Notes under the pieces: generated by a model
Told to the model about the DNA's origin: nothing
What the model saw: only the letters and a program-made list of their open reading frames with translations
The model's database searches: none
Program-made: the position numbers and the translations under genes
In this document: one piece after another, positions 3,913-52,086 of the stretch
How the letters are laid out: each line of letters opens with the position of its first letter
How positions within the stretch are numbered: the stretch's first letter is position 1
Assembly: GCF_019603315.1 (NCBI RefSeq)
Contig: NZ_CP080649.1
Span: 2,428,176-2,492,175, forward strand
Direction of reading: 5' to 3'
DNA: 64,000 nt
From: Ruficoccus sp. ZRK36
Lineage (GTDB): Bacteria; Verrucomicrobiota; Verrucomicrobiia; Opitutales; Cerasicoccaceae

Positions 3913-6900
3913 CTACTCGCTCGTGAGCTCGGGGCCGAGGCAGAGCCGGAAGCCGATCGAGGACGAGCGTGTCGTATCGGCCATGCTGTCACGCGAAGCT
4001 AAACGCGCACGGATGGCGTAGGTCTCCCAGCCGCCGCCGCGAACGACGTGGCGGGTGTCTCCCTCGTTATTATACCAGTCGGTTTCTTTGCCACCGGGCA
4101 GGCGACCGTTAAACTTGTCCATGCACCATTCAGCGACGTTGCCATGGATGTCATAAAGCCCGAAAGCATTCGGGGTATACTCGCCGACGGGGCTTGTGCC
4201 GTAGAAGTCCGGGTCCTCCAGCTGCGACGAGGTAAAGTCGCGCGGATATTTGCCGCGGAAATTAGCGTGCGAGATGTCGGCAGTGTCGCCCCAGTGAAAG
4301 GGCTCCTCCGTGCCAGCGCGGGCAGCGTACTCCCACTCGGCCTCAGTCGGCAGGCGATAGGCGTAGCCCTCAGGGACACGCCCGGCAGTCTGCTCGCGGC
4401 GGTTGACCTCACGGCAGTAGGCGATGGCCTCCTGCCAGGTTACTTTCTCCACCGGATGTCGCGGGCCTTTGAACTTGGAGGGGTTCTCCTCCATGAGCTG
4501 CATGTACTCCTGCTGGGTGATTTCTTTCTCCGATAGCCAGAAGCCTTTGGAGAGGGTGACCTCTGTTTGCGGCCCTTCGACGGGCAGGCGGGCGTGCTCC
4601 TTGAGAGGGCTGCCCATGGTAAAGGTACCGGGGGGTATCCAGGCCAGCCGGATATCCAGATAGGGGATGTCGTAGGAAAGGCCGCTGGCAGGCCCTGGGA
4701 TAAGGGTCAGGGAGGTTTCCCAGGTGTAGCTTTCGTTGGGCCTGAGCTTGATGGCCAGGCGCTGGGGAATGTAGTCGGGGGCTTCCAGGCTCAGCTCAAA
4801 ATCTTTGTCGGGGGGCAGGTTAAACTGGTTGGCACCATCAAGGGGAAAGGCTTTGCCGTTGGCGGTAATGGATAGCGGGAGTCCGGCGGGGGTGACGTCG
4901 AGCTCGATGATGCCGGGCTTTGGCTTCAGGTCCAGGGGCACACGCAGCAGGGTGTTGTCCGGGAGCTGGAAGGTCTGCTCCACATCGATGTAGTCGGGGT
5001 GGCTGGCCACGAGCGTGACTTCACCTTCCGGGATGCCTGACAGGACGTTGGAGTTGCCGGGGTATGTCTTCGAGCCGATGCGGTAGCTCAGCCCTTCGAG
5101 GAGTGAAACGGAGGGTGGGGCACCGTCAAAGGTAACCTGCGGTAAAAGCTCGCCGGATCGGGGTGTGAGCTCTCCGAAGTCGAGCACCGTGCGGGTATTC
5201 GGCTCCAGTGTGACGGCGAGTTTCTCGGTCCGGTAGCCATCCATTTCCAGCGTGACGATAAACTGCTCACGCACAGGCAGGCCTTCGATCGTTGCGTTAC
5301 TGGTGCCGATTTCCTTGCCCTCGATGTAGACGGTTGCCCCTTTGGGGGTGGAGCGTACGCGCAGTGTGCCCGGCATAGGGACGAGGGGGAAATCCAAACG
5401 ACCGGCATCTTCGTCCAGCTGGAAGTCCTCTTTCTCCATCGTCATGTAGTCATCTTTTTCCAGACGAAGGGTGTAGTTACCGGCATGCAGCAGCTGTGCC
5501 ACGCGGAGCAGCCCATCCTCGTCGGCAGTCCCCAGATCGTACATGCGTCGGGAGCTGTCGATCGCCGTCGCACGTGCTCCGGGGGTCGTATGGATCTCTA
5601 CATCGGCCCAGGCAGGCTCGAGCTTGAGGTTGAGCTCCTGCTTGCCGCGCTCGATTTCGATGAGCTGGGTCAGGGGAGTGTAGTGGGGAGCGCTCAGCTT
5701 GATGTTGTAGATGCCTGAAGTGACGTTCAGGTCGAGCGTTCCATTGCGCACGATGAAGCTTATGTTCTCGCTGGGTATCTCAAAGAGCGCATCTGGAGGC
5801 TCGGTCCGTATTTTCAGGCGAGGCTCTTTACCCTCGGGTGTGCGTATGGCAACGGGCGCATCCGTAGGAGAGTCTTCGAGGAAGGCCAGCTCGTAAAAGA
5901 GTGATGTGAGGTAGACAGCGATGCAGGCGATGATACCGATGATCCCCAGACGAAAGGCCCGAGTCGTTTTTATCCCGCGACGTTTGATCTGACGTGGCAC
6001 CGGGATGAAGTCCATGTGCCGAAAGACAGACTTCGTTTGCGCCGTTCCCGGCTCCAGGGGGGATGCGCGCTCCTGGATGTTATCAAGATCGTTCAGGTCG
6101 GCCAGGACGGCGGCGGCGGAGCTATAGCGTCTGTCTGGATTGCGTTCGAGACAGTTTGCCAGGAGGGTATCCCAGCTCTTGTCGAGGTCGGGGTTGACTT
6201 CACTGGGCGGGGCGTAGTTGTAGCCGGGCTTGTGCCCGGTGAGCAGCCAGTAGGCAGTGATGCCAAATGCGTAGATGTCCGAGCGCTCATCGCCGGGCTT
6301 ACCCAGGCGTGTTTCAGGGGAGAGGATGTCAACCGTGTTGATGCGGATGCGGCGCGGCCCCAGTGAAATCGGAGGGATGCCTGCCGATACCAGTGTCTCA
6401 AAGAGCTCTTTACCCGCCATCGACATGATGCCCAGCTCGGTCAGCTTGATCCGCCCCTCGCTATCGCGCAGGATATTGGTCGGGTTAAGGTTCAGGTGCA
6501 GTACCTTATTGGCATGCGCATAGGCGAGCGCTTCGAGCACTTGCCTGAGAATCTTGCGCACCTCCTTCTCGGGGAGTCCGACCGGCATGTCTGCCAGCAG
6601 ATTATCTTCAGAGTCCGAATGTGGAGCGCGGTGTTTCTCGATGGCGTACTGTTCGAGATAGTCGGCCAGATTCTGGCCATCAAAGGCCTCATGGTAGATG
6701 GTAAAACGGCCTTTTACCAGATCCGCGTCCTCGGCCTGGAGCAGATTCGGGTGCTGGAGCTGGAAGAGTCGTGAGCTATGCTGGAAAAAGCGCTCGCGGA
6801 AATTTTTGTCGTTTTTAACCAGCGGGGGGAGGACAAACAGGCATCGGCCCTCGCGTACGCGTGTCTTACGGACACGATACAGGCTACCCATCAAATCATA

Positions 6901-7017
6901 GGAGAGACAGCGTAGTACCTGGTAGTCGCCAAACTTCTCCCCCGGAGTGAGGACTTCATAAGCCCGGCCAGGTGGCGGTCTGTCATCAGGGATTGAGTCG
7001 GCGGAAAGGTCGGCCAT
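3913..7017 (-). CDS. Pseudokinase - transmembrane - PEGA repeats - FGE-sulfatase (SUMF1) fold protein
   Basis: A 1034-residue membrane protein. Residues about 25-310 have a Ser/Thr-kinase fold (HPN before the hinge, SPE, SDIYAFG), but the catalytic positions are changed: HLNLNPTN at 174-181 has Asn for the HRD Asp, ELG (194-196) replaces DFG, the VAIK Lys is missing (LFVL near 60-63) and the alpha-C Glu aligns with His. It should not phosphorylate. A single transmembrane helix spans about 357-379. Extracytoplasmic PEGA-like beta repeats run from about 400 to 770 (for example TPKGATVYIEGKEIG). Residues about 790-1030 form an FGE-sulfatase domain (IPPGTFTMGS, YRLPTEAEWEYAAR, GLYDIHGNVAEW, RHVVRGGGW) lacking the active-site cysteines of true formylglycine-generating enzymes. 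Likely a signalling or scaffold protein joining cytoplasm and periplasm; ligand unknown. Confidence 0.85.
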   Translation of the reverse strand: MADLSADSIPDDRPPPGRAYEVLTPGEKFGDYQVLRCLSYDLMGSLYRVRKTRVREGRCLFVLPPLVKNDKNFRERFFQHSSRLFQLQHPNLLQAEDADLVKGRFTIYHEAFDGQNLADYLEQYAIEKHRAPHSDSEDNLLADMPVGLPEKEVRKILRQVLEALAYAHANKVLHLNLNPTNILRDSEGRIKLTELGIMSMAGKELFETLVSAGIPPISLGPRRIRINTVDILSPETRLGKPGDERSDIYAFGITAYWLLTGHKPGYNYAPPSEVNPDLDKSWDTLLANCLERNPDRRYSSAAAVLADLNDLDNIQERASPLEPGTAQTKSVFRHMDFIPVPRQIKRRGIKTTRAFRLGIIGIIACIAVYLTSLFYELAFLEDSPTDAPVAIRTPEGKEPRLKIRTEPPDALFEIPSENISFIVRNGTLDLNVTSGIYNIKLSAPHYTPLTQLIEIERGKQELNLKLEPAWADVEIHTTPGARATAIDSSRRMYDLGTADEDGLLRVAQLLHAGNYTLRLEKDDYMTMEKEDFQLDEDAGRLDFPLVPMPGTLRVRSTPKGATVYIEGKEIGTSNATIEGLPVREQFIVTLEMDGYRTEKLAVTLEPNTRTVLDFGELTPRSGELLPQVTFDGAPPSVSLLEGLSYRIGSKTYPGNSNVLSGIPEGEVTLVASHPDYIDVEQTFQLPDNTLLRVPLDLKPKPGIIELDVTPAGLPLSITANGKAFPLDGANQFNLPPDKDFELSLEAPDYIPQRLAIKLRPNESYTWETSLTLIPGPASGLSYDIPYLDIRLAWIPPGTFTMGSPLKEHARLPVEGPQTEVTLSKGFWLSEKEITQQEYMQLMEENPSKFKGPRHPVEKVTWQEAIAYCREVNRREQTAGRVPEGYAYRLPTEAEWEYAARAGTEEPFHWGDTADISHANFRGKYPRDFTSSQLEDPDFYGTSPVGEYTPNAFGLYDIHGNVAEWCMDKFNGRLPGGKETDWYNNEGDTRHVVRGGGWETYAIRARLASRDSMADTTRSSSIGFRLCLGPELTSE

Positions 7018-7074
7018 GGAGAAGGTGATCGGACGCTGGAGATATAAAAAAAGTGCGCCAGAGCGTAGAAAAGG

Positions 7075-7377
7075 TCAAGGCTTGAGGGTGTCTGGAGCCT
7101 GGGCATTCTTCCCTGCTACCTTATGGTAGGTGCCAGTTAGCTTATCCCGCTCGTACTTGGTGAATCCGGCCTTTTCGACATTCTCATTGGCGAGTTTGTT
7201 CTTCGTGGAGCCGGGGGTGTACTTACTGGCCAGATTGGGGGGGAGATAGACTCGGCGTACGGGCTCACCACTCTGAGGGTGGTGCGTGAGGGCCGGGTCA
7301 CTCATGGGTTGCTCAATTTCAAAGCGTTCTCCTCCCGAATTATCAGGCAGAACGATCTCATAAACATAAATAGGCAT
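7075..7377 (-). CDS. Cysteine-less FmdB-like small protein
   Basis: A 100-residue protein that begins MPIYVYE like FmdB-family putative regulatory zinc ribbons (compare MPTYDYHC in the copy at 20956-21219) and keeps a PVRRVYLPPNL segment after the ribbon position. It contains no cysteine at all, so it cannot bind zinc in the family's usual way. The C-terminal part (FTKYERDKLTGTYHK) is well conserved in style, arguing for a real gene. It lies 57 bp upstream of, and on the same strand as, the pseudokinase gene and may be cotranscribed with it. Function unknown. Confidence 0.7.
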   Translation of the reverse strand: MPIYVYEIVLPDNSGGERFEIEQPMSDPALTHHPQSGEPVRRVYLPPNLASKYTPGSTKNKLANENVEKAGFTKYERDKLTGTYHKVAGKNAQAPDTLKP

Positions 7378-23828: not shown

Positions 23829-26111
<2,283 letters not shown>

Positions 26112-26180
26112 GACGAATAAATCACTATAACCACAAGCCCACGGCGTGCAAATCCGAACTGACGGCGGACACCATGCTCA

Positions 26181-26210
26181 TTTTCAGGATGTATCTGCTG
26201 CCGGTAAGAT
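26181..26210 (+). promoter_or_regulatory. Possible promoter of tRNA-Ser
   Basis: TTTTCA (26181-26186), an 18-base spacer and TAAGAT (26205-26210) lie 66 bp before the mature tRNA. Weak match, judged by eye. Confidence 0.25.
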
Positions 26211-26275
26211 AAAAAGGGGTGAAAAAAGCCCTTTCCCTCTCCGGAAAAATCCGCTAACTTGCGCGCCTTTAACCG

Positions 26276-26363
26276 GGAGAGGTGGCAGAGTGGCCGATTG
26301 CGGCGGTCTTGAAAACCGCTGTCCCGCAAGGGACCGGGGGTTCGAATCCCTCCCTCTCCGCCA
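26276..26363 (+). tRNA. tRNA-Ser (anticodon TGA)
   Basis: Acceptor stem GGAGAGG (26276-26282) pairs with CCTCTCC (26353-26359); discriminator G26360; CCA encoded (26361-26363). Anticodon stem GCGGT/ACCGC encloses the loop CTTGAAA with anticodon TGA at 26310-26312; a long variable arm and GGTTCGAATCC T-loop follow. It reads UCA and, by wobble, other UCN serine codons. Its 3' end is the attachment site of the mobile element, and the gene stays intact because the 11-bp shared core restores the acceptor end. Confidence 0.97.
26353..26363 (+). repeat. Left attachment core (tRNA side)
   Basis: CCTCTCCGCCA, the 3' acceptor strand, discriminator and CCA of tRNA-Ser, is repeated exactly in direct orientation at 63955-63965. 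Flanks differ on both sides. In both places the recombinase reading frame crosses it as GGC-GGA-GAG on the minus strand. Confidence 0.8.
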
Positions 26364-28114
26364 CTTGTGTTCAAATACGAACTATTACCGGGTTTTTTGT
26401 AAACATCTCGGAACAAGGACTTTATGAAAAAGTCGATTTTGATTTGGTACCGGAAAGTTCGTAATTGCACGTCCAGGACGGCAGGATCTTTCGAAATTTC
26501 GTCATTTTCGGGGTCCACAGGTGTTACACAAATACGCTCGATGAGGAGGTCCAGAAGGCGTTTTTGGTCCTCGAAACAGAGGTGGTCAAAGAGCGCCCGA
26601 AAGTTCGATAAGGCCTCGGCCACCATGATTTCGTTCATGAGGTGCCCTTCACGGCTTTTTATCTGAACCTCGATCTGCGACTGCTCCTTTTTGAGTGCCT
26701 CCTGCTGCTCGGCCAGTATCTCGGCCTCGGCCAGCAGGACCTTGCTGATGGCGCTTCCACTTTTATGGATCAAGTCGGTGAAGGACTTTAGTTTGCCTGC
26801 GATTTCCTTTTGCTGCTTCCGAAGCTCTTTCAGGCGGATTTTTAGTGGTCGGACCGAACGTCTGGTTTCTTTTTCGCTTTTGGTCAGCGTTGCCTTGATG
26901 ACCTTGGGGTGCTTGCTGAACTCCCCGATAATCTCGATTATGAACGCATCAATGTCTTTTCCGGGAAGGTTTCTGAGCTTACAATCAGAGTCCTTGCCGT
27001 AGTTGATCACGTTCTGGCAGGTATAATAATTGCGGGGATTGCCGTCTTTGTCGGGCTTTCCCCCGGCTTTGGGCGACATGGCCTGCCCACAGCACCCGCA
27101 GAAGAGTTTGCCCTTCAGGAGCATCTCATGCTTGTTGGAACGCGGGGCGTGCTGCACGGGCTGGCGCTTGTTTAAAACATCGTTCGCTTTTTTCCATAGC
27201 TGCTCGGTGACGATGGGCTCCCACAATGCCGGATATTCATGGTTGTCGGGTCCCAGGCGCACGGCTTTGTAAACCGGGTGCGTGACCATGCGCTTGATTT
27301 TGTCGGCGCTCCACTTGATTCCACCAACTTGGGAGCCATCCTTGCGTTGGCGTACTCGCGTCCGGTACCCCTTGGCATTCACCGCTTTAGCGACAGCTGC
27401 GGGGCTTTTCAGATCAACCATTGAGTTGAAAATTTCCCTGACTATAGCTGCCTCTTGTTTGTTGATGCTCAGTGAACGTTGGGGCGTGCTGTCGTAGCCA
27501 TAGGAGGTCAAGCCCGGGTGCTTCATCCCCTGTCTGGCCTCACCGGCGAATTTTTCCCGCAGCCGCTCCGAGGTCATTTCGCGTTCGAACTGAGCGAAGG
27601 TCAGGATGATATTCAGGACCGCCTTGCCCAGTGGGTTGCTCGTGTCGATGCTCTCGGTGCATGAGCATAATTGGACCCGATGACGCTCCATGATGGCCCA
27701 CAACTCGTAAAAATCCCGGATCGAGCGGGTCAGCCGGTCAATACGCAGAATCACCAGCACATCCACCTCTCCGGATTCGATCAGGCTGATCAGCCGTGAA
27801 ATCCCCGGACGTTTCAGATTTGAGCCGCTGCGCCCGGGATCTGTAATTTCCTCCACCAGTTGCCAGTTCTCGTGGGCCTTGACCTGAATCTGGGAACGGT
27901 TGGTTTGCTGCTGGTTATCGATGCTGGTAAATTCACCACGGGTTTGCTCGTCCGTACTGACCCGGGAATAGGAAACGCAGCGGACGATGGCGGGGGGCTG
28001 AGTGGCGGACTTGGGTTGCTTGGGCATGGTTCGAGATTATTAAAGTGAAAAGGTGTTACAACTGCGAACTTTATGAAGGCCGGTGCGGCTGAGCTGCCCC
28101 CCATCCGCTTTCGC

Positions 28115-38401: not shown

Positions 38402-38950
38402 ATGAGAGCAGCAAAGAAAATCGCTCAAAACTCAAATCTAACTATCAGCTACGTCGATTGGATTCGTCGGGATATTCACGTCCCTCGGGTCAAGATGGTC
38501 CGCCCTAGCCGTGGAAACTGGGCTGGGAATGCCCTCCATGAGGCGCTGCAATTTGACCGTGATGATCGAGGGTTATCACCGATGGTTAAGGCCTTTAAGA
38601 GCCACGTTGGTCGTATTGCGCATGAGCACCGATCTAACTGGGAAGTCTATGTGCCGGGAGTCTTCACCGGGCGCATGGACTGGGACCTTTTCACGCCTAA
38701 GGCAATACAGGTGATGGAATTTAAATGGATGACGGATTCCCTTCCGTCAAAGCCTCGAGATGTGGATGTTAGACAAGTCGCTATGTACGGGTATGCGCTT
38801 AGTCAGGCATTTCCCGAGCATAGTCTTTGGCTAAAAATCGTTTATTTTTTTGGTGGCAATAGAAGCTCACGCCCACGCATACGCATCTTCAATTTCAAGT
38901 ATCAAAACCAACTCACTGGCATCGCTCGTCGCCTGCTGGAAAGAAACTAA
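38402..38950 (+). CDS. Stand-alone RecB/Cas4-like PD-(D/E)XK nuclease
   Basis: A 182-residue protein with the RecB-type nuclease motifs in order: GNALHEAL (His46), GRMDWD (Asp93), VMEFKW (Glu107, Lys109) and QVAMYGYAL (Gln125, Tyr129). The Fe-S cysteines of Cas4/AddB are absent. The expected activity is metal-dependent DNA cleavage. The next gene starts one base after its stop, so the two are translationally coupled. With a divergent XRE regulator this forms a small cassette inside a defence-like region. The fold assignment is by motif reading; biological target unknown. Confidence 0.7.
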   Translation: MRAAKKIAQNSNLTISYVDWIRRDIHVPRVKMVRPSRGNWAGNALHEALQFDRDDRGLSPMVKAFKSHVGRIAHEHRSNWEVYVPGVFTGRMDWDLFTPKAIQVMEFKWMTDSLPSKPRDVDVRQVAMYGYALSQAFPEHSLWLKIVYFFGGNRSSRPRIRIFNFKYQNQLTGIARRLLERN

Positions 38951-39979: not shown

Positions 39980-42193
39980 TTAGTTGCGGTTCAAATTTTT
40001 ATAGTGTGTAGGCGCAACCGTTTGGATCATCTCGATCAAATGTTGTGCATTATTTCTGGTTTCGTCCACCAGTGACGGGTCGAGGCCCTTTCCCGTGGGA
40101 TGCGAGAAGTCGTTCGCATACTTGTTTAATGCAGTCTTTTTGATTGGGTCGAATTGTATACTCTGAAGTTTTTGATGATTTTTTTCTGCCGTTGGGCACA
40201 TAAACTCAAGAAATTGCTCAAGCAGCTTTCGGATGATGTTTGGCATTGGGTAAGCATTTTCAATTGTTCCATCGCATGTATAGTCTCTAACCTGCTTAAA
40301 GAGAAATACATACTCACTGCCGTTCTCGGTTAGGGCTTTATCCATGGACTCTATCCAAGACTTCCTAGCATCTCCCGTCGTGGCTTTTGCTTTGAGCATG
40401 AAATATTCACGATTTTTCTTCGCGTACGGGTGATGTTTTATCCAGTTGAGCAATAGCTTCAAAAAATCAAAATTGTGGGTAAGCAAAAAAACCTGTTTTG
40501 AGTCTTTGACAGCTTCCTTCAGGAAGGCAAAAGCCTGATACGTCGAACTGGCATCCAGGCTTGAAATTGGATCATCGACAACAACGATGCCCGTAGTTTT
40601 ATCGAAATCTTGGTCTTCGAGCTGGACGGAGAAATAGACAAATGCGATTGCAGTCTTTTCGCCTTCGCTCAATCCCTGTGCAGGGACAGACTTGCGATAA
40701 ATCCGGTATCCATCTCCCTCGGGATCAAATCTCAATTCTTTACGCCCTAGGAAAATTTCCAGTTTCTTTGTCAAATCTTCCGCTGCTTGCTGAGTATTTG
40801 CGATTAGTCCACGTTTCCGTTTAATCTCGGCATCAAGCTCATCGAGAGAAAGTTGCTTAGTTTCTTCATTACCGTCTTGAATAGCCTTCACATCGGCCTT
40901 GAGCTGGTCTAGCTCATTATCGTACGCCTCCACATCGGACTGAATCGTGCTCAAATAGTGCTGTTCTATTTGGGAAGAAGCCAATGTCCTAGCCTCTTCA
41001 AAACTCTTTGATTTCGTATTATGCGCTCCGATCACTTCGTTTGTTTGGCGTAATGCCTCGGCAACCGGATATGAATCCAATATGATGTTAAATTCTATCA
41101 CTTCTGTTCGGCTTACCAGCTTTCTCTCAACCAACTTCTTTGCTTTTACTACATATGTTCTTAACTTGGAGAGCTTCTCTTTCACCGCCGCGTAGTAAGT
41201 TGCATATTCAAGCTGAAATTCATCAAAAAATTCCAATTTCGATGGCATTGCGAAGCTTTGAAGCGATTGTAGAATTGCATCGTAATTTTCGATTAGTTTC
41301 TGAAGATCTTCTTTTAATGACTTGTCTGCATCATTGAAGTGAGCGGCTAGAGCTTTCAGGCGATCTTCTGTCACTACACTGCCGCAAAATTCGCATTGGC
41401 TGCCGGATTCATGTAGCTCGATACCGCTTTCAACCCATAGCGAAATTCTAGGGTTTTCTCTCAGCCTTGGGATGACAATGGCTTCCACTGTTTCAATTAA
41501 TAGCTTGTTGGATGTCTCGGCTAGAGAACTTAAGTCGATCTCAAACGTTCCTAAGTCGAGCTTTGAAATACTATCAAGTTTTTTTTGCTCAGCAATAAGC
41601 TTCAAGGTTTCAAGCTCATCGTTGCTGAGCACCTTAAATTCTGTGAGGCTTTTATAAGCCAATTCCGCTTGCGGTTTTCTATATGTTCTTGATGTCAACC
41701 CTTGGGTTGCCACACCAATGACCTTGGCAATATCGGTAAACTCTTTGCCTCTAGCTTTTTCCTTAGAATCAATTTGTCCTGTAAGGTCGTTAAGCTTACT
41801 TTGGCGCTCCACGTACTCTTTTTCATTTTCTGCAAGTTCGGCCTGTAGGTCTTTTTGATCCTTTCCAATAATGAATATGGGATTTAGCTCACCTTCAATT
41901 TCACCAATGTTTGATCGCACATAATCGGCATTAAAAACTCTGATTGGAACTGTCTTAGCATCTGTTTCCTTAAGCGTGCCAGACTCAGCCTCCAGTGAGT
42001 ATTTTAGGTCTGGAAATGGCTCACAATCTCCAGTCGCAAGATGTCGAAAAAGCCTCGATAGTGTGGTTTTTCCAGAGCCATTTGCGCCATAAAGGATGTT
42101 GAATCGCTTAAACTCATTAAGGCTGCTTCCAGACGGCCAACGGTAGCCGTCGAACACACCCATATTACTGACACTTTTAATTTTCTTAATCAT
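39980..42193 (-). CDS. RloC/PrrC-like AAA_13 ATPase with zinc hook
   Basis: A 737-residue SMC/Rad50-type ATPase: P-loop GANGSGKTT (36-44), long coiled coils (about 105-240 and 290-480) joined at a zinc hook CEFCG (Cys267, Cys270), ABC signature QGLSEGEKTAIAF (about 505) and Walker B GIVVVDDPISSLD. The CXXCG hook and the C-terminal layout (EYFMLK ... SEYVFLFKQVRDY ... IIRKLLEQFLEF) fit the AAA_13 family, which includes the tRNA anticodon nucleases RloC and PrrC. I could not identify the nuclease's Arg-Glu-His set with certainty. It follows the DUF2130 gene by 27 bp. Probable DNA-damage- or phage-triggered defence ATPase. Confidence 0.8.
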   Translation of the reverse strand: MIKKIKSVSNMGVFDGYRWPSGSSLNEFKRFNILYGANGSGKTTLSRLFRHLATGDCEPFPDLKYSLEAESGTLKETDAKTVPIRVFNADYVRSNIGEIEGELNPIFIIGKDQKDLQAELAENEKEYVERQSKLNDLTGQIDSKEKARGKEFTDIAKVIGVATQGLTSRTYRKPQAELAYKSLTEFKVLSNDELETLKLIAEQKKLDSISKLDLGTFEIDLSSLAETSNKLLIETVEAIVIPRLRENPRISLWVESGIELHESGSQCEFCGSVVTEDRLKALAAHFNDADKSLKEDLQKLIENYDAILQSLQSFAMPSKLEFFDEFQLEYATYYAAVKEKLSKLRTYVVKAKKLVERKLVSRTEVIEFNIILDSYPVAEALRQTNEVIGAHNTKSKSFEEARTLASSQIEQHYLSTIQSDVEAYDNELDQLKADVKAIQDGNEETKQLSLDELDAEIKRKRGLIANTQQAAEDLTKKLEIFLGRKELRFDPEGDGYRIYRKSVPAQGLSEGEKTAIAFVYFSVQLEDQDFDKTTGIVVVDDPISSLDASSTYQAFAFLKEAVKDSKQVFLLTHNFDFLKLLLNWIKHHPYAKKNREYFMLKAKATTGDARKSWIESMDKALTENGSEYVFLFKQVRDYTCDGTIENAYPMPNIIRKLLEQFLEFMCPTAEKNHQKLQSIQFDPIKKTALNKYANDFSHPTGKGLDPSLVDETRNNAQHLIEMIQTVAPTHYKNLNRN

Positions 42194-42220
42194 TATTGGG
42201 GCAGTTAATTTTTAGGAATT

Positions 42221-43840
42221 CTACTCAGATTCACCAGATTGGCTCTGAGATCTAGCCTCCTCAAATTTATCTTTCATTGTCGGGTTATTCCGGGTCAGCT
42301 TTTTTACCGTTACATCTTGTGCTTTGTCGTTTGCAAGGCGTAGCTGGTTTTCTGACTTAACTAGGCTTTCTCGGGTCTTTTGCAGGTGTGAGATAGACTT
42401 GTCGATCTCCTCTACTGCCTTTTGGAAGTGAGAGGATGCAAGTTCAAAGTTTCTGCCGAATCTTGACTTAAAGTCTTCCAGGTCAGCCTCGAAGTTCGTT
42501 ACGTCGATGTTCTGAGCCTTCACCAGCGCTAGTTCATTCTTGTAGCTCAGTGAATTTGTCGCTGCATTCCTAAGAAGTGTAATCATCGGGATGAAGAATT
42601 GCGGTCGAATGACATACATTTTTCCATAACGATGAGACACATCGACAATGCCTGTATTGTAGAGTTCACTTTCAGGCTCGAGGAGGGAGACCAGTATGGC
42701 GTATTCACAACCTTTTTCGCTCCGGTCTTTGTCCAGTTCCTTAAAAAAATCCTCATTCTTCTTCTTACTCGCCGTAGTGTCATTCTCGTTTTTCATCTCG
42801 AACATGATGGAAACGATTTCCGTTTCATTTTCATCCATGTCTTTGAAAACGAAGTCTCCCTTGCTACCGGAGCTGGCATCGTTGTCTTTCTCGAAATACG
42901 CCCGTGGAAAGGCTGTTGCACGTATGCGGTTAAACTCGGTCTCGCAATGCTGTTCAAGTGTCTCTCCCAGCATCTTGGTCGAAAGTTTTGCCTTCAAATC
43001 TTTGAGACGATCAATGGCTTCATCCCGATCTTTGAGCTGTGTTTCATACTTATCTCTCAGTGCCTTTTCTGCGACCTGTTTTTCGAGGGCTGCCTGATCT
43101 AGACTGTGCCTAAGAGTATCGCGTTCTTTTTCTACAACACTCACAGCTTCGGTTATGGCCAGTTTCTGGCTAAGCTCCTTGGCCTGTAACTGAGCCTTTA
43201 GCTCTTCGATGTCCTTTTGCTTCTCAATTTCCGCTAATTTCGTTGCGCTTTCTCCATCGATCTTCACTTGCTTAAGTTGATTCTCCAGATCGATTTTCTC
43301 TTTTTCTAAACGAGTGACAGCATCTTTTACGGCCAGCTCTTGTGCTGCCTTACCTGCCTCCAATTGTGATGTAAGACCTTGAATAATAGACATTTGCTCT
43401 TGTATCTCAGCACGCAGAGCGCTACTTACTTTTTGCTCGGTCAGCTCGACTGCACTAGCTTTGTCTTTCTCGGCTTGCTCCGTAGCCTTTTGAGTATCGA
43501 ACTTGGCTTGTTTGAGTTGGCTTAGAAGGTCATCTCTCTCTTTTTCAACAGCAGAAACAGCACTACTGATCGCCAACTCTTTCTCCGTCTTTCCTGCATT
43601 CAACTGAGCCTTCAAATCGCTAATAGTCGCGTCTTTTTGTTGAGCTTCTGTTTGCAGTTCACGAGCGAGCTTCTCCTTGGCAAGCTCTACTGCACTGTGT
43701 TTATCCTTCTCGGCTAGTGCCAGCCTATCGTGTAGCTGTGCGTCGAACTCCTTATTTCTGACTTGTTTGAGAATATCGGCATAGCCAGCCTCGTCGACTT
43801 TAAATGCTTTACCGCAATGTGGGCATTTTATCTCGTTCAT
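42221..43840 (-). CDS. DUF2130 coiled-coil protein with PD-(D/E)XK-like core
   Basis: A 539-residue protein: N-terminal zinc knuckle (CPHCGKAF, Cys6 and Cys9; only one pair seen), coiled coil about 25-285 with roughly 80-residue internal repeats (ELAISSAVSAVEKERDDL, ELAVKDAVTRLEKEKIDL, KLAITEAVSVVEKERDTL), then the DUF2130 domain. Its core GETLEQHCETEFNRIR ... SGSKGDFVF ... SIMFEMKNEN has the Glu/Asp/ExK order of PD-(D/E)XK nucleases. A second helical region closes the protein. First gene of a two-gene unit with the RloC-like ATPase; together they look like a nuclease-plus-sensor module. Confidence 0.82.
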   Translation of the reverse strand: MNEIKCPHCGKAFKVDEAGYADILKQVRNKEFDAQLHDRLALAEKDKHSAVELAKEKLARELQTEAQQKDATISDLKAQLNAGKTEKELAISSAVSAVEKERDDLLSQLKQAKFDTQKATEQAEKDKASAVELTEQKVSSALRAEIQEQMSIIQGLTSQLEAGKAAQELAVKDAVTRLEKEKIDLENQLKQVKIDGESATKLAEIEKQKDIEELKAQLQAKELSQKLAITEAVSVVEKERDTLRHSLDQAALEKQVAEKALRDKYETQLKDRDEAIDRLKDLKAKLSTKMLGETLEQHCETEFNRIRATAFPRAYFEKDNDASSGSKGDFVFKDMDENETEIVSIMFEMKNENDTTASKKKNEDFFKELDKDRSEKGCEYAILVSLLEPESELYNTGIVDVSHRYGKMYVIRPQFFIPMITLLRNAATNSLSYKNELALVKAQNIDVTNFEADLEDFKSRFGRNFELASSHFQKAVEEIDKSISHLQKTRESLVKSENQLRLANDKAQDVTVKKLTRNNPTMKDKFEEARSQSQSGESE

Positions 43841-43975: not shown

Positions 43976-44443
43976 TCAATCATCGGGATATGTTATCGTG
44001 GGAAAAATATGCACCTCAGGCCCAAACTTACAGGGGAATTCCTGGAGTTTTCGGGTGCGAATCAGTTTTTGTATGTGCATCCAATTTTGTCGCTCGAGTT
44101 CCCGATACTTGATCCCATGTTTGCTTATTGAGTATGCCTTTAGCTTTACCACGATTTCTCCTCTTGTTGTGCCGAAGTAAATAACCAAACCATCTTCGCC
44201 AAGAGAGAAATGGCTGATGCTGTGGTACGGGAGTGTGACAGTTTTTAGTGATTTGTGGTCCTCGAATGCGATCCAACTGTCGTCGGATTCTTTTGAGGAT
44301 AGATCGCATACCATCGAGGATATCTGCGATACTTGGCTGGTGAGGCTCTCGAGTTGGCTGCGGGTTTGCGCGTTCACAGTGGAGATTGCAGTCTGAATTA
44401 AGGTCACGATCTCTGGGTTCATTGATGATTGTTTGTCTTTCAT
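43976..44443 (-). CDS. Overprinted mobilization ORF inside the relaxase gene (MbeB/MbeD-like position)
   Basis: A 155-residue frame that overlaps the relaxase 3' end by 416 bp in another frame and extends 52 bp past it. It has well-balanced composition: a helical, coiled-coil start (IVTLIQTAISTVNAQTRSQLESLTSQVSQISSMV) and a beta-like second half (SLKTVTLPYHSISHFSLGEDGLVIYFG, GEIVVKLKAYSI). The relaxase frame across the same DNA is Arg/Gln/Pro-rich and low-complexity, suggesting that this smaller ORF is the constrained one. ColE1-type plasmids likewise nest mbeB and mbeD within mbeA. No sequence match to those proteins is claimed. Confidence 0.6.
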   Translation of the reverse strand: MKDKQSSMNPEIVTLIQTAISTVNAQTRSQLESLTSQVSQISSMVCDLSSKESDDSWIAFEDHKSLKTVTLPYHSISHFSLGEDGLVIYFGTTRGEIVVKLKAYSISKHGIKYRELERQNWMHIQKLIRTRKLQEFPCKFGPEVHIFPTITYPDD

Positions 44444-45314
44444 GATCTATATTGTTTGATAGTAGAATTCCAGGAACTGGGGTGGAAATAGTCTCCCCGG
44501 CAAAGCGTGATTGTGCTCGTCTGATACGCTTTTGCAGCTGCTGCAAAAAAATAGTCTGATACTGCTCATAACTCTTACGTCGACCAGTATTGGGTGTTAC
44601 CTGATTTTTCAGGTAGTACAAATCAGCTCCTTCACGATATTTTTCTCCCTTGAGGCGAAGGCGCTTTTCACCCGAGCCAGGCTCCCGTACACCGATGAAA
44701 TTCCGGCTTGGGGAAACTTCATACCCCTGTTCCTTGAGATAAGAGATTATATCTTCGCGATGCCTTAGTTTCCCCAAATGAATCTGCTCAACGATTAAAC
44801 GATCCAGCTTTGTGAACAGTTTTTTCTTTTCAGGTGGTAATTTACTAGATGGTACGCTTTCGAGTCGGGTTCGCTGTGGAGCGTGTGGTGAGCTGAATCC
44901 GAACTGATAATTGATTACTTCCTGCCAACTATCGAAAAGAATGCCGTCTGCGTAATGGTAATAATGTTGCCAACGTTTGCCACTTGAAAGGTGCGTATGG
45001 GCTATGATGCAGTGAAGTTCGGTGCGATCGTGCTCGGAATGTCTCACCCACAGGCGTTCGATGTCGGCAGGATCAGCACCTGCGTAAGCCACTGCTTCGT
45101 AGGAGTCGATGATGGCGATCTCCTGTTCCGACGTGATCTTTTCAGAAAACGATAATACAATAGAGGTGTATTTGTTTTTGAACGGACAAGTATGGTAGAC
45201 TCGGTCCCATATTACCGGACTGCCCCGAAGAACCTTCGCCGCTATTTGTCGAGGCTTCAGTAGATAACCAACAGGATCTCCTGTTGCACCACGTGCAAAC
45301 ACCCGATGGATCAT
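44028..45314 (-). CDS. ColE1/MbeA-type relaxase (MOB-HEN class)
   Basis: Nicks oriT and pilots the strand during mobilization. The N-terminal 210 residues follow the MbeA pattern: GDPVGYLL, VLRGSP, KYTSIVLSFSE, then LWVRH (His92), ELH (Glu99, His101) with spacings 7 and 2 as in the HEN motif (His-Glu-Asn), but with His in place of Asn. HYYHYAD and WQEVINYQFG also match. The C-terminal part is Arg-rich and overprinted by another ORF. Start overlaps the mobC stop (ATGA, 4 bp). With no transfer-channel genes present, it would depend on a helper conjugative system. Confidence 0.85.
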   Translation of the reverse strand: MIHRVFARGATGDPVGYLLKPRQIAAKVLRGSPVIWDRVYHTCPFKNKYTSIVLSFSEKITSEQEIAIIDSYEAVAYAGADPADIERLWVRHSEHDRTELHCIIAHTHLSSGKRWQHYYHYADGILFDSWQEVINYQFGFSSPHAPQRTRLESVPSSKLPPEKKKLFTKLDRLIVEQIHLGKLRHREDIISYLKEQGYEVSPSRNFIGVREPGSGEKRLRLKGEKYREGADLYYLKNQVTPNTGRRKSYEQYQTIFLQQLQKRIRRAQSRFAGETISTPVPGILLSNNIDHERQTIINEPRDRDLNSDCNLHCERANPQPTREPHQPSIADILDGMRSILKRIRRQLDRIRGPQITKNCHTPVPQHQPFLSWRRWFGYLLRHNKRRNRGKAKGILNKQTWDQVSGTRATKLDAHTKTDSHPKTPGIPL

Positions 45315-45868
45315 TTTTGCCCCCTATTTATCAAGGCATTTAGTTGTTGGCGAATTGCGTGTAAGTGATCTGCGACAACAATGATTTCAAACGGAGTTCC
45401 CACCGCATTGTGCGTATTTATCGCCTTGGCAATTTGGTTTAGATTATTGCCCGACCAGGCGATCTGCCTGATCAGTTCGGGGTCAGATTTTATCGTACCC
45501 TGACCTGAGGGGCAAAGAAGGGTTTCTCTGGCCCAGTTCGCCAACGACTGCCCATTGGGTTTGTTTTGGCGAATATGATAATCCTCGTCCTTTGTAACGC
45601 GGATTTTTAGCGTCTTCTCTCGCTTTGAGAGAGCTGTTTTTGCTTTCCTCTGGCTACTTGTTTTATTAGCAGCCTCAACAGGGGGAGGTGTCGGAGGAGG
45701 GGGCTGGCCCCCGGCCTCAGCCAGTTCGCGAGAGGGTCCGTGTGGCCCTCTCGCGTGTACTGGCTTATTAATTTTTTCGGACCCTAATTTTCCCTGGGGC
45801 CGGTTGCTATCTTCGTGGTTTCCTAAGCTGTTAGCAGCGGTGTTTTTTCCATATTCAGAGTTGCCCAT
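45311..45868 (-). CDS. mobC: MobC-family mobilization accessory protein
   Basis: A 185-residue protein from ATG 45868. A Pro-rich, low-complexity N-terminal half (QPPPPTPPPVE) is followed by a basic ribbon-helix-helix-like segment (KTLKIRVTKDEDYHIRQNKPNGQSLANWARE) and the MobC signature LIRQIAWSGNNLNQIAKAIN. MobC proteins open the DNA at oriT and help the relaxase. The gene is directly beside the candidate oriT and overlaps the relaxase by 4 bp. Confidence 0.85.
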   Translation of the reverse strand: MGNSEYGKNTAANSLGNHEDSNRPQGKLGSEKINKPVHARGPHGPSRELAEAGGQPPPPTPPPVEAANKTSSQRKAKTALSKREKTLKIRVTKDEDYHIRQNKPNGQSLANWARETLLCPSGQGTIKSDPELIRQIAWSGNNLNQIAKAINTHNAVGTPFEIIVVADHLHAIRQQLNALINRGQK

Positions 45869-45873
45869 AATAA

Positions 45874-45924
45874 TCCTTATGGGGCGTACTTGCGAAATCA
45901 CCAAAGTTTTTTTCAAAAAACTTT
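45874..45924 (-). other. Candidate origin of transfer (oriT)
   Basis: In the minus-strand sense a 10-bp-arm inverted repeat (AAAGTTTTTT / AAAAAACTTT, 45903-45924) is followed 11 bases later by AAGTACGCCCC (45881-45891), close to the AAGTGCGCCCT nick region of RSF1010/pSC101-type oriTs, where an inverted repeat also sits just upstream. It lies immediately upstream of mobC. The relaxase is of ColE1 type, so the match to another family's nick site needs caution. Confidence 0.45.
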
Positions 45925-45964
45925 TCATTGTTTTCTCTTACGTTCGGCACATAGGGGGTATATC

Positions 45965-48646: not shown

Positions 48647-49627
48647 TCAAAACGGAACATCATCATCATATTCAGGTCTAGCCGCAGGAAGGGACTTGTC
48701 TGGTAGCGGCAAACTATTTGCAATGTAGAGATTCAATATATCTTCACGATCCATAAAAAGTATTTGGCTGCGCTTAGAAGCATCTAATTTTCCTCCGAGC
48801 CAGTTTCGGGCCTGTTTGGTAATGTCCCCGCCAGCAACGATGAATGCATGATCAACGAGGACACGCCTACTAGTTTCTGGGTCGAATATCTCATGGCCAA
48901 GCATCATTAGCACCTGATTGTAGATCTCTGACACATTTGCATTGCCTGCTTTGCTTACCCCAGATGTATCCAATTTACCCTTTTTGACCTGTATTCCAAA
49001 ATAAAGAATATGTTGTGTTGGAAGCACATATCGCATCCAGATATCTTTACCATATTCCAGGGCCTTATCCTTGTGCCCAGCTGCCGTTATCCGGTGGTAA
49101 CCCAATTGCCGTAATAGCGGAAGTAGGACATCTTCAATCAGTTCGTCTTCAGAGCATTGGCTCAAGTAGGCAACTAGCTGATTGCGTTTTTCTATTTCTT
49201 TTGGGGTGAATGGACGATGGGGATTTGCTGCCAAGGAAATTGTCTTTGTCCCGATATGGCGGACATAAAGAAGCTCATCATCGCCATAGAATGCCTCATA
49301 ACCCTCTCGTGAGAGAGGCTTGTTTAACTCCTCTAGCGCCTTCAAGCGATCAGGATCTTCTGGCACGGCATCAGGCTTGAGCATCAACACCCGAAGCACA
49401 TGAACAAAACGTTCAGGAAGAGAATGAGCGACAGGTTGTGGTTCTTGCAGTAATTCCTCCAAACGCTCAGCTGTCCAATGCCAGCGTGTTGTGCCATCGT
49501 GGACAAAGTCCAAGTCACATTCCTCAAAAAACTGAGTGATGTAGCTGCTCGATCGATATGGGAAAAACTCTTGGTCCCCAATAATCAGTTCAGCAATTGC
49601 CCGCAGATTCCTACTTTTGAACTTCAT
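48647..49627 (-). CDS. Mrr-like PD-(D/E)XK restriction endonuclease with AbiJ-like N-terminus
   Basis: A 326-residue protein. The N-terminal 60 residues (FFEECDLDFVHDGTTRWHWTAERLEELL) resemble AbiJ N-terminal domains, which keep an HDG.TR.W signature. Residues about 160-300 are a restriction-like fold: DELIEDVLLPLLRQLGY (Glu164), GKDIW (Asp196) and QVKKGKLD (Gln213, Lys215), the D...QxK form of the Mrr superfamily. It probably cuts DNA, perhaps modified DNA, in response to invasion. It stands alone, with 220 bp of empty DNA before the TcmP gene. Assignment is by motif reading. Confidence 0.72.
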   Translation of the reverse strand: MKFKSRNLRAIAELIIGDQEFFPYRSSSYITQFFEECDLDFVHDGTTRWHWTAERLEELLQEPQPVAHSLPERFVHVLRVLMLKPDAVPEDPDRLKALEELNKPLSREGYEAFYGDDELLYVRHIGTKTISLAANPHRPFTPKEIEKRNQLVAYLSQCSEDELIEDVLLPLLRQLGYHRITAAGHKDKALEYGKDIWMRYVLPTQHILYFGIQVKKGKLDTSGVSKAGNANVSEIYNQVLMMLGHEIFDPETSRRVLVDHAFIVAGGDITKQARNWLGGKLDASKRSQILFMDREDILNLYIANSLPLPDKSLPAARPEYDDDVPF

Positions 49628-49847: not shown

Positions 49848-51140
49848 TCAGTCGGATAAACCATTTCGTATAATACCCATTCCCGTTAAGTAAGGACGTC
49901 TATTAAGCTTGATAATGTCACCAGGTTCGACGCGTTCACAGCGTTTAATTCCACCATTTGGGCCATTGATATTAATTTCTCCAGCTTTAGCCAAATCAAC
50001 TAACGCATCCGAAAGAAGACTGGTGTTTGCAATTGTATCGCTAATCCGATCTAAGCAAAGCGTAGAGAATGTCGTCCCTTCTGAGTAGTTTGATACAAAC
50101 TCCTGTATTAAATCTTTCCCAAGATGTAATCTTGCCTTCGTAATCGTATCGTCAGAAAAATCAAATCCATCAAGATAGCCAGACGGATCGCTATCAGGAT
50201 TATAAGCAAGCATCCTCAACCCTGTATTACCAAATGCCCTTATATGCGTTTGTTTTCGATGGTACACATCGATCATAGCATTCCTTGCCCGAATATGGGG
50301 AGCCAAGTGAACTAACCAATATCCATGGTTACTACCTGTTGTCGGCTCGACATAGAAAGGGCTAAAAAAAGGAGATTTGGATGCTCTTTGGAGGGCAGGC
50401 CCAAGCTTTGCTGCAATTACGTAACGATAATCACTTTGGGTCTTTTCTTTCAATTCCAAGAGTTCGTCAATCGGTATTAAGTCACTTAACCCAAGACCAT
50501 CATAACCTTTACGAAAGTCATCGCCACCATTAATATAGTGGGCTAACCAATCACATGCAAAGTTAAGTATAAACTCACATTTATAATTCAATGATTGAGA
50601 TATTTGAGCAATCTGAGTGGCATTGACTTGGGCCCATCCACACTGATCTAAAAAGAAAATAACCCGAGAGCCTCCATTCGGATGGCGTGCTTTAGTTTTT
50701 TCAACAATATACGTCGATACATTCTCGAACGAATCATGGATCAGATATATCTTTTTTGATAATTCATCGCTCCACTCGGAAGCCTTGATTGTTTGCTTCA
50801 AACTATCAAACGCGTATTTGTTCTTTTCTACGAAATAATAATGCGCTTCAATTTTTAATGGCTTAGTTCTTTTTTGCTCTAAGTTAATGAGCGCTTCTGC
50901 TTCTTTTACCGCTTTTAATAGCGTAAGAGGAGAGCCATCCTCTCCCTTGCTGTAGCGTCCGCCTCCAGCAAACGCATCAACCAGCGTGATCTTAAAAATT
51001 TCTTGTCCCATTGAGCCACGAACAAGAATTTTGAGGTAATCCACTACATAGTCCCGGAGAACCTCTAGCTTCGTTTGACTATGTGGCTCTAAATCAGGGC
51101 AACTTCCATCTTTTTTCCATATAAATGCCTTTGTTGCCAT
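49848..51140 (-). CDS. tcmP: Three-Cys-motif partner protein TcmP
   Basis: A 430-residue protein of the TcmP family, named for its steady pairing with the three-Cys-motif (Gp37/Gp68, DUF5131) protein encoded just upstream. Features: TKLEVLRDYVVDYLKIL, ITLVDAFAGGGRY (a Rossmann-like, methyltransferase-like nucleotide loop), HYYFVEKN, FFLDQCGWAQV and CEFILNFACDW, then a C-terminal region with a winged-helix-like end. The loop suggests S-adenosylmethionine or nucleotide binding; activity is not established. It starts 25 bp after the DUF5131 gene: one operon. Confidence 0.85.
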   Translation of the reverse strand: MATKAFIWKKDGSCPDLEPHSQTKLEVLRDYVVDYLKILVRGSMGQEIFKITLVDAFAGGGRYSKGEDGSPLTLLKAVKEAEALINLEQKRTKPLKIEAHYYFVEKNKYAFDSLKQTIKASEWSDELSKKIYLIHDSFENVSTYIVEKTKARHPNGGSRVIFFLDQCGWAQVNATQIAQISQSLNYKCEFILNFACDWLAHYINGGDDFRKGYDGLGLSDLIPIDELLELKEKTQSDYRYVIAAKLGPALQRASKSPFFSPFYVEPTTGSNHGYWLVHLAPHIRARNAMIDVYHRKQTHIRAFGNTGLRMLAYNPDSDPSGYLDGFDFSDDTITKARLHLGKDLIQEFVSNYSEGTTFSTLCLDRISDTIANTSLLSDALVDLAKAGEININGPNGGIKRCERVEPGDIIKLNRRPYLTGMGIIRNGLSD

Positions 51141-51165
51141 GTATGTCTATTCGAGTGAATATCGT

Positions 51166-51987
51166 TTAAGCGATTTTGGGAAACTCATCCCACGTTCGCT
51201 CGTCTAGGTCTCTACCTGCAATTTTTTTGCCTGCGGCAGCCATTCTAAATCCATCGAACATAAGCGTTTCTTTCTGCTCAGATGTTAGCAGTTCAACTGG
51301 AGCCCAATGCCCCCACTGCTTAAAATGAAAGGCAACTTTGTATTCTTGGCATTGATCCCTGAGTGACCGGACCCACTGCGGACTCATTGGTCTAGACTTA
51401 GCGCCACTTTCACCGCCTGCAATGACCCAGTCTATCTGATTGTGTTTCATCCAATCACTTAAATCAATGTGACCAAGTAAGGGTTCGCAACTTAGAAATT
51501 TAATCCTTGCCCCCGATTGAGCGAGAAAAGGTACTCGCTTATCTACCCAATGCTGATTTTCTACAGTTGTTCCCATCCACACGTTGAGAGGCCATGAATT
51601 GTCATCCCAAGGGGCCATTGACTTTATATTCTGAGGGCGTTTCGTTAGCATCAGCCAATCTAATTGAGGCGTTTGGGCAATTATATCCCAGAGCCTCTCA
51701 CGATCTGCTCTCAACTCCGCTTTTCGCTCAAAAACGTCAGCCATGGATGCACAAAAGACACGGTATCGCTTACCTGTTATTTCAGCCTCACGATTCCATT
51801 TTAAAGGCTCTTTCCAGTGAGCATCGCTAAAAAAACGTCGAGGAGCTTTAGGACCCCATACCTTACTTCCGACGCGTTTGGCCCAAGCCTCGGCGTAACA
51901 ATTGTTGCATGCTGGAGACACTTTTATGCAACCCCACCAGGGATTGAAGGTGTGGTGTGTCCATTCGATTTTTGAATCTTTAGCCAT
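51166..51987 (-). CDS. DUF5131 (phage Gp37/Gp68-type) three-Cys-motif protein
   Basis: A 273-residue protein from ATG 51987 (MAKDSKIEWTHHTFNPWWGC); the frame is open 99 bp further. The family motif is Cys20-x6-Cys27-x2-Cys30 (WWGCIKVSPACNNCYAE), followed by VFCASMADVF, WLMLTKRP, VWMGTTVENQ, LSCEPLLG and WVIAGGESG, a radical-SAM-like barrel. The cysteines probably bind an iron-sulfur cluster. Found both in phages and in chromosomal islands; its partner is the TcmP gene downstream. Substrate unknown. Confidence 0.87.
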   Translation of the reverse strand: MAKDSKIEWTHHTFNPWWGCIKVSPACNNCYAEAWAKRVGSKVWGPKAPRRFFSDAHWKEPLKWNREAEITGKRYRVFCASMADVFERKAELRADRERLWDIIAQTPQLDWLMLTKRPQNIKSMAPWDDNSWPLNVWMGTTVENQHWVDKRVPFLAQSGARIKFLSCEPLLGHIDLSDWMKHNQIDWVIAGGESGAKSRPMSPQWVRSLRDQCQEYKVAFHFKQWGHWAPVELLTSEQKETLMFDGFRMAAAGKKIAGRDLDERTWDEFPKIA

Positions 51988-52086
51988 GCCTACGCTAAGT
52001 GAACATAAGAGCACTCCATTTGCAAGCATACTTTCTATAAATCCACTACCGTGCTTTTTCTTGGTTAAAATGGGGCTCGAAAGCAA

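Follow-up and report, generated by a model that had tools for sequence, protein, structure and literature searches.

Why does a gene of the DUF2130 family lie directly ahead of a gene for an RloC-type ATPase? The question arises in Ruficoccus sp. ZRK36, where the two genes occur on the minus strand of a 64,000-nucleotide stretch of contig NZ_CP080649.1 (positions 2,428,176 to 2,492,175; hereafter the window), DUF2130 first and the ATPase second. An earlier note on this DNA had placed them 27 bp apart, as they indeed are, both as complete open reading frames (ORFs), and had proposed that they could form a two-gene anti-phage system. We found the pairing to be facultative but recurrent, in distant bacteria, which suggests that RloC and DUF2130 may cooperate against phages. 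The reading that we develop below is a modular two-arm defence unit, in which a DNase arm would be coupled to a tRNase arm; we judge the chances for and against it to be evenly balanced. RloC itself is already known, and the novelty, as far as our literature searches reach, lies in its pairing with DUF2130 and in the exchange of neighbours at that place. Searches by title found no paper on DUF2130 function, and the listings and passages searched held none tying DUF2130 to RloC or to defence; in the part of PMC3597751 considered here, the family is merely tabulated among metagenome correlations, under carbohydrate metabolism.

The identity of the ATPase is the firmest part of the answer. In the passages of the original description used here (Davidov & Kaufmann 2008, PMC2610378), RloC is an ABC ATPase of 658–897 aa split by a coiled-coil/CXXC zinc hook and ending in a C-terminal motif Arg-X3-Glu-X36-52-(Ser)His, confirmed through mutation in one member; the HEPN survey, in the part consulted, assigns its RNase domain to the HEPN superfamily (PMC3710099). 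Judged by its sequence, the window ATPase is an RloC in all these respects, with ABC motifs, a CxxC hook, a fitting length and the predicted anticodon-nuclease triad R655-X3-E659-X38-H698, S697 preceding the histidine. Across 48 aligned ATPases (the window's and 47 relatives), R655, S697 and H698 are invariant, and position 659 has E 38 times and D 10 times; a triad pattern allowing E only matched 92 of 110 ATPases, and D accounts for ten of those that it missed. The alignment thus located the RloC nuclease residues that the earlier note had wanted checked, and the C-terminus is not the unrelated domain that it had allowed for. The CXXCG hook announced there holds for its cysteines, C267 and C270, which are invariant in these 48 proteins and also in 14 of 14 in a second set (the window's and 13 relatives at 21–42% identity), so that the CxxC is not there by chance; the glycine, G271, is unconserved (17 of 48). 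Pfam AAA_13 spans residues 17–718 (1.9e-133), and model PDLC04894 of the PADLOC candidate system PDC-S06, whose 'S' we take to mean a single-gene candidate, matches residues 1–735 (9.3e-238). The enzyme is predicted to be a DNA-sensing, tRNA-cutting ATPase of the RloC type. As far as the consulted passages go, PDC-S06 appears in a table (PMC11514479) and RloC is listed as a Streptococcus thermophilus defence system with no activity assay there (PMC12322248).

Structure prediction agreed with the ABC part of this assignment. In the AlphaFold2 (AF2) model of the ATPase (mean pLDDT 83.5, pTM 0.54), helices flank the hook on both sides, the hook region itself being of low confidence. Compared with Rad50/SMC heads, the model gave a best Foldseek E of 1e-6 (a Mre11-Rad50-Nbs1 chain) with TM-scores about 0.2, and against Rad50 a Z of 16.6 (root-mean-square deviation 6.3, 285 aligned); a sequence search of solved structures returned a weak Rad50-head match. 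Lamassu and Septu ATPases were also among the fold matches. The comparison rows shown held no anticodon-nuclease structure and barely covered residues past 629. The same genome has a second RloC-type AAA_13 gene (G000:C1:769324-771411, L002; loci are numbered with an L), 23% identical to the window ATPase and with the hook CPFC.

The DUF2130 protein passes its Pfam model by a wide distance (298.1 bits, cut-off 26.7), PF09903 being its only Pfam match. It consists of an N-terminal CPxC, a long helical (coiled-coil) stretch and a PD-(D/E)XK-like domain, in which G292, E296, G328, D329, E348 and K350 do not vary across an alignment of 22 DUF2130 proteins that counts the window's among them; the presumed catalytic residues are likewise invariant in a set of eight, five of which are RloC-paired (the window's and four more). 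At the level of motifs, DUF2130 looks like an active PD-(D/E)XK nuclease, in keeping with the 'PD-(D/E)XK-like' label of the earlier note, and it is a probable DNA-cutting enzyme. The fold evidence is weaker. The AF2 model is modest (mean pLDDT 72.4, pTM 0.40), with strands 330–335 and 341–350 holding or adjoining D329, E348 and K350. Foldseek gave a best E of 0.11, to a non-nuclease, and no match at or below 0.001, with MspJI, PaqCI, MUS81 and other nucleases lower down; in VIA-align helical proteins ranked first, followed, at Z 6.0–7.8 over about residues 287–430, by Cdn1, BstEII, McrC, Bax1, BsaWI, Can2 and Holliday resolvases, all of which we take to belong to the PD-(D/E)XK superfamily, and the unrelated Rep15 scored Z 6.3–6.5 over the same region, within the nuclease range. 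A sequence search of solved structures returned no match. The CPHC at the end of the helical stretch could be half of a zinc site; zinc binding there, like contact with the hook of RloC, is speculation. DUF2130 proteins fall into two subfamilies told apart by their N-termini, A 'CPHCGKAFKIDEAGYADILKQVR' and B 'CPKCKTEIKLTESLAAPL', and the closest to the window's is that of L053, at 79% identity.

How often do the two families meet? phmmer searches with the window proteins missed distant relatives, and profiles were used in their place. Seen from the ATPase, the sample comprised the best 80 of 343 relatives from a scan of 84,980 species genomes, along with 37 viral loci. The DUF2130 profile found the family at four of the 80 genome loci, in each as the next gene on the same strand (L080, L090, L126 and L144; gaps of −4, 17, 87 and 77 bp). 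L080, from a Rhodobacteraceae genome, has the order HsdM-HsdS-HsdR-DUF2130-RloC, in which a single short ORF separates HsdS from HsdR; L090 comes from Afipia, L126 from Rhodobacteraceae and L144 from Alphaproteobacteria, its RloC being cut at the contig end with the triad intact. A hunt for further members of the L126 clade covered 61 genomes and returned L126 itself only. The nearest relatives of the window ATPase are those of Verrucomicrobiota, and the ATPase gene is broken in L072 and L123.

Seen from DUF2130, four groups of genomes were sampled for PF09903 matches above the cut-off: the phylum of the window (21 of 387 genomes with a match), the class of L080 (13 of 385), the class of L110 (35 of 369) and the phylum of L118 (66 of 395). 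These provided 134 regions and 124 usable contexts (18, 10, 31 and 65 by group), the other ten being fragments and genes lost by the ORF caller; the sample excludes sub-cut-off matches, a genome barely over the cut-off (G752), that of L080 (G387), the window and L225, and contexts end where contigs end. An AAA_13 ATPase adjoins DUF2130 or shares its operon in six of the 124 contexts (L290, L292, L300, L295, L053, L056), so that adjacency does recur across genomes when counted from either side, and in three (L290, L292, L300) this is a triad-bearing RloC on the strand of DUF2130. At L290 the RloC gene lies 256 bp away, with a single called 71-aa ORF between. L292 and L300 are one type I restriction-modification (R-M) operon each, with HsdR between RloC and DUF2130 (HsdS and HsdR by Pfam in L292, by eye in L300); L292 also has a RhuM-like gene (by eye), and the likeness of the two loci means that they may represent one event. 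At L295 the ATPase, 49 bp from DUF2130, is a divergent AAA_13 protein (142.8 bits) whose triad, read by eye, is doubtful, its spacing of X53 being just beyond the published range; L053 and L056 have an AAA_13-family ATPase with a CxxC and no triad directly adjoining DUF2130, and L365 and L378 gave weak AAA_13-like matches. All RloC-type cases in this set come from the class of L110 (four of 31 contexts, L295 included). Among the pairs occur both DUF2130 subfamilies and both gene orders. The DUF2130 scan of viral contigs gave four loci, none with an RloC-type ATPase, and phage records gave no DUF2130 match. At L300, an nSTAND3 NTPase gene (4991-7258) lies directly downstream of DUF2130, in the type I R-M operon that also holds RloC.

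The number of pairs can be set against random placement. The 1.19 Mb flanking the 80 ATPases should hold about 0.014 DUF2130 genes, versus the four observed, if these were spread randomly at the rate of the class of L080 in genomes assumed to be of 2.8 Mb; this expectation ignores clustering and is too low, as defence islands cluster, and yet clustering alone is insufficient to explain four direct same-strand neighbours out of four. Nor is the pairing a heritage of one lineage. The six paired rows (window, L080, L090, L126, L144, L295) require six changes when placed on a 79-ATPase tree, all forced by strongly supported branches; the tree was made by a quick method, and in it L295 sits on a very long branch and L144 is a fragment. 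The idea of a single paired lineage was dropped in view of these scattered pairs; the expectation that the two closest RloC genes would carry DUF2130 was dropped too, neither of them having it.

The serious rival to a cooperating pair is that the island simply stacks a stand-alone RloC of the PDC-S06 type and an unrelated solitary nuclease, cargo gathered behind mobilisation genes, which we regard as a real possibility, though on balance a doubtful one. Several findings weigh against cooperation, and a number of them speak directly for stacking. DUF2130 was absent by profile search from 76 of the 80 ATPase genome loci and all 37 viral ones, and no triad-bearing RloC accompanies it in 121 of the 124 DUF2130 contexts (120 counting the doubtful L295), most sampled DUF2130 genes having no ATPase neighbour. 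The closest ATPases, those of L078 (73%) and L079 (70%), have no DUF2130, and the DUF2130 closest to the window's, that of L053, is partnered with a different hooked, triad-less AAA_13 ATPase. On seven plasmid records that carry RloC relatives, no DUF2130 lies within 6–8 kb on either side, and none of 57 plasmid records covers 80% of the pair in one place. The paired label is no more clustered on the tree than after random shuffling (all 500 shuffles scored as low), which means that pairing comes and goes and is not inherited by lineage. Both families are found in defence islands, where unrelated systems stack, and whereas the ATPase matches PDC-S06, DUF2130 matches no model in the PADLOC library. 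Finally, three RloC-DUF2130 pairs lie inside type I restriction operons (L080, L292, L300), which, with the many unpaired loci, counts against the two-gene system of the earlier note if this is taken as fixed. What speaks against mere stacking is that, in the set gathered from RloC, a nearby DUF2130 is always the very next gene on the same strand, and that the pairing recurs across distant groups and with both DUF2130 subfamilies.

Other genes, too, take the place beside RloC. In a six-member RloC clade (SH-aLRT 100), the slot 3' of RloC is occupied by DUF2130 in L126 and L144; in L081, L085, L089 and L095 it contains a calcineurin-like phosphoesterase and, after it, an AAA_27-type ATPase. Pfam identified the phosphoesterase of L081 and L095 and the AAA_27 ATPase of L081, and sequence clustering the remaining ones; ahead of the phosphoesterase, the ORF caller placed a short overlapping ORF in L085 and L089. 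The phosphoesterase is of the Mre11/YhaO type and the SMC/AAA_27 ATPase of the YhaN type; RloC with this neighbour set, located at 12297-16882 in L081, also occurs in L111, L112, L123 and the plasmid L071. This exchange upholds in part the analogy with Rad50-Mre11 drawn by the earlier note: as in Rad50-Mre11 or SbcCD, a hooked ABC ATPase gene stands beside a nuclease gene (Z about 16 to Rad50 heads), and some RloC relatives do adjoin a calcineurin-like phosphoesterase. By Pfam, however, the window DUF2130 lies outside the Mre11 fold family of calcineurin-like phosphoesterases, and the window ATPase bears its own predicted RNase domain. Septu PtuAB, Lamassu and OLD/Gabija-type pairs likewise combine an SMC/ABC-type ATPase with a nuclease, and their ATPase families differ from that of the window.

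RloC keeps other company as well. Within four ORFs of the 80 ATPases, HsdS occurs at 14 loci, HsdM at 12 and HsdR at 10, with a second HsdR cluster at four; these clusters were read by eye, with Pfam applied to the members from L080 for HsdS and for the second HsdR cluster. At L078 (8449-12208), which lies near the window's branch of the ATPase tree, RloC overlaps by 4 bp a Cap15 gene, itself preceded by a nucleotidyltransferase with a SMODS match just under cut-off, and this RloC may be coupled to a CBASS-like operon.

In the two-arm unit, DUF2130 would be a coiled-coil PD-(D/E)XK DNase attacking incoming DNA or processing DNA ends, and RloC a Rad50-like, zinc-hooked ABC ATPase that detects either DNA ends or the condition of the DNase arm. 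Should the attack on DNA fail or the damage persist, the C-terminal RNase of RloC would cut tRNA anticodons and translation would stop; the outcome for the host could be phage resistance. This step would parallel PrrC, which acts once its type I restriction partner is disabled, and the likeness to PrrC-EcoprrI lies in a DNA-attacking arm backed up by a tRNA-cutting one. Whereas PrrC is linked to a type Ic R-M system, HsdM, HsdS and HsdR were not found among the ten window ORFs scanned with Pfam (38.4 to 51.1 kb). DUF2130 would here take the place that type I R-M holds beside PrrC and would also correspond to the Mre11-like phosphoesterase and SMC-type ATPase beside RloC in L081, L085, L089 and L095. 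In the passages of the original description used here, RloC is seldom linked to R-M, an associated DNase is discussed by analogy with Mre11 and SbcD, and no DUF2130 partner is reported, whereas the window has a DUF2130 gene directly ahead of RloC (PMC2610378). Those passages also leave open how RloC is restrained and what signal it senses, and the recurrent DUF2130 neighbour is a concrete partner candidate; conversely, the pairing offers a functional lead for the unstudied family DUF2130.

Another role for DUF2130, in place of that of a phage-DNA nuclease, would be that of a regulator or guard silencing the tRNase, through hook-to-hook contact or by removing DNA ends, so that its loss or inhibition would trigger RloC. 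PrrC is kept silent by its linked R-M enzyme and the RloC hook regulates RloC activity, according to the passages used (PMC2610378), and the conserved CPxC of DUF2130 sits at the end of a long helical stretch. Most RloC genes have no nearby DUF2130, however, so a guard is not generally needed, and the nuclease residues of DUF2130 are invariant; we consider a pure guard quite unlikely.

DUF2130 has other ATPase neighbours besides RloC. Among 84 direct same-strand DUF2130 neighbours of at least 250 aa, Pfam found AAA_21 in seven (the commonest), AAA_15 in five, AAA_13 in three and OLD-like TOPRIM in three, categories that overlap, versus at most two each in 111 control proteins of the same loci (of 114 drawn, three omitted for length; the top 25 families were listed, down to two members). 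The restriction helicase family ResIII was equally common in both (five of 84 versus four of 111). An ABC-type Walker A occurs in eight of 42 direct neighbours of at least 400 aa versus 12 of 367 other ORFs (p=3e-4), for a pattern picked after some neighbours were known and with three of the 12 background matches being the RloC of L290, L292 and L300; this excess speaks for the two-arm unit. Among plasmid copies of DUF2130, the one in Enterobacter comes after an OLD-like ATPase and the one in Lactococcus comes before a TrlF-family ATPase, while those of Paraburkholderia, Bradyrhizobium and Arthrobacter have no such ATPase directly beside them; the Enterobacter segment of OLD-like ATPase and DUF2130 is fully covered in two of 5,426 Escherichia coli genomes. 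By eye and annotation, DUF2130 also occurs inside helicase/Mod/Res-type R-M clusters (L055-L057, L059, L060 and plasmid L066), and the ATPase directly beside it in L056, L057, L059 and L066 varies by locus (AAA_13-like, TrlF-like, AAA_15/OLD-like). On a broader reading than the two-arm unit, DUF2130 might be imagined as a transferable DNase module that serves defence ATPases of the SMC/ABC type, a functional stand-in for Mre11 that is passed between RloC, OLD-like ATPases, TrlF-like ATPases and R-M operons and that with RloC would form a DNase-tRNase machine whose CPxC end meets the CxxC hook via a shared zinc ion; taken as a whole, this proposal seems rather unlikely to us.

The same link to SMC-type ATPases could instead reflect chromosome maintenance, with DUF2130 a host DNA-repair or housekeeping factor outside defence. 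Its surroundings are ordinary in Bacteroidota and in many other genomes, and it is present in 66 of the 395 genomes sampled from one phylum, but a smaller share of the genomes in the other three groups has it, and several of the paired copies are part of R-M operons or, as in the window, neighbours of mobilisation genes; we hold this explanation to be very improbable.

Table 1. Features of the DUF2130-RloC locus in the window (window positions; residues are those of the encoded protein)
Feature	Position	Strand	Remarks
DUF2130 (PF09903) gene, 539 aa	42221..43840	minus	complete, uninterrupted ORF; Pfam 6.3e-89
CPHC, residues 6-9 of DUF2130	43814..43825	minus	C6, C9 in 21/22 aligned DUF2130 proteins
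PD-(D/E)XK-like nuclease core, residues 287-430	42551..42982	minus	AF2 model and VIA-align rows
Predicted catalytic residues D329 ... E348-x-K350	42791..42856	minus	invariant 22/22 and 8/8, window counted
Intergenic gap, 27 bp, between DUF2130 and ATPase genes	42194..42220	minus	by eye, no obvious ribosome site
RloC-type ABC ATPase / predicted anticodon nuclease gene, 737 aa	39980..42193	minus	complete, uninterrupted ORF; AAA_13 1.9e-133
Walker A GANGSGKT, residues 36-43	42065..42088	minus	G36, G41, K42 in 48/48; N38 in 47/48
Zinc hook CEFCG, residues 267-271	41381..41395	minus	C267, C270 in 48/48
ABC signature LSEGE and Walker B / D-loop VVVDDPISSLD	40553..40672	minus	S509, G511, E512, D540, D541, S545, D547 in 48/48
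C-terminal helical domain with triad R655, E659, S697-H698	39986..40339	minus	helical in AF2 model; HEPN-type by literature

The setting of the pair is that of an island. G+C is low (0.42–0.48 in 2-kb windows) across 40–54 kb, with the pair inside, and about 0.54–0.65 from 1 to 34 kb and 0.53–0.64 from 54 kb onward. The pair follows immediately on a relaxase gene and a MobC/NikA-like gene (44028-45928); the NikA-like protein exceeds its own Pfam cut-off, and the relaxase resembles MbeA at 1.5e-38, under the curated cut-off. The phylum sample includes two further genomes of this genus, and neither gave DUF2130 or a match to AAA_13 at E<=1e-20, as would suit an acquired island. The DNA carrying both genes is probably mobile. 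Direct repeats were searched as marks of the island ends and none was convincing, and a promoter and terminator scan gave results no better than shuffled sequence. A serine-recombinase ORF (by eye; 25952-28027, minus strand) overlies a plus-strand tRNA-Ser gene (26276-26363), a possible integration site. Two more PD-(D/E)XK-like-looking ORFs lie in the island, at 38402-38950 (PDDEXK_9 below cut-off) and 48647-49627 (by eye). Farther on, at 49848-52086, a TcmP gene (three-Cys-motif partner, NCBIfam TIGR04474) adjoins a probable three-Cys/phage Gp37-68-like gene, the latter recognised by eye, and the same region matches PADLOC PDC-M30A.

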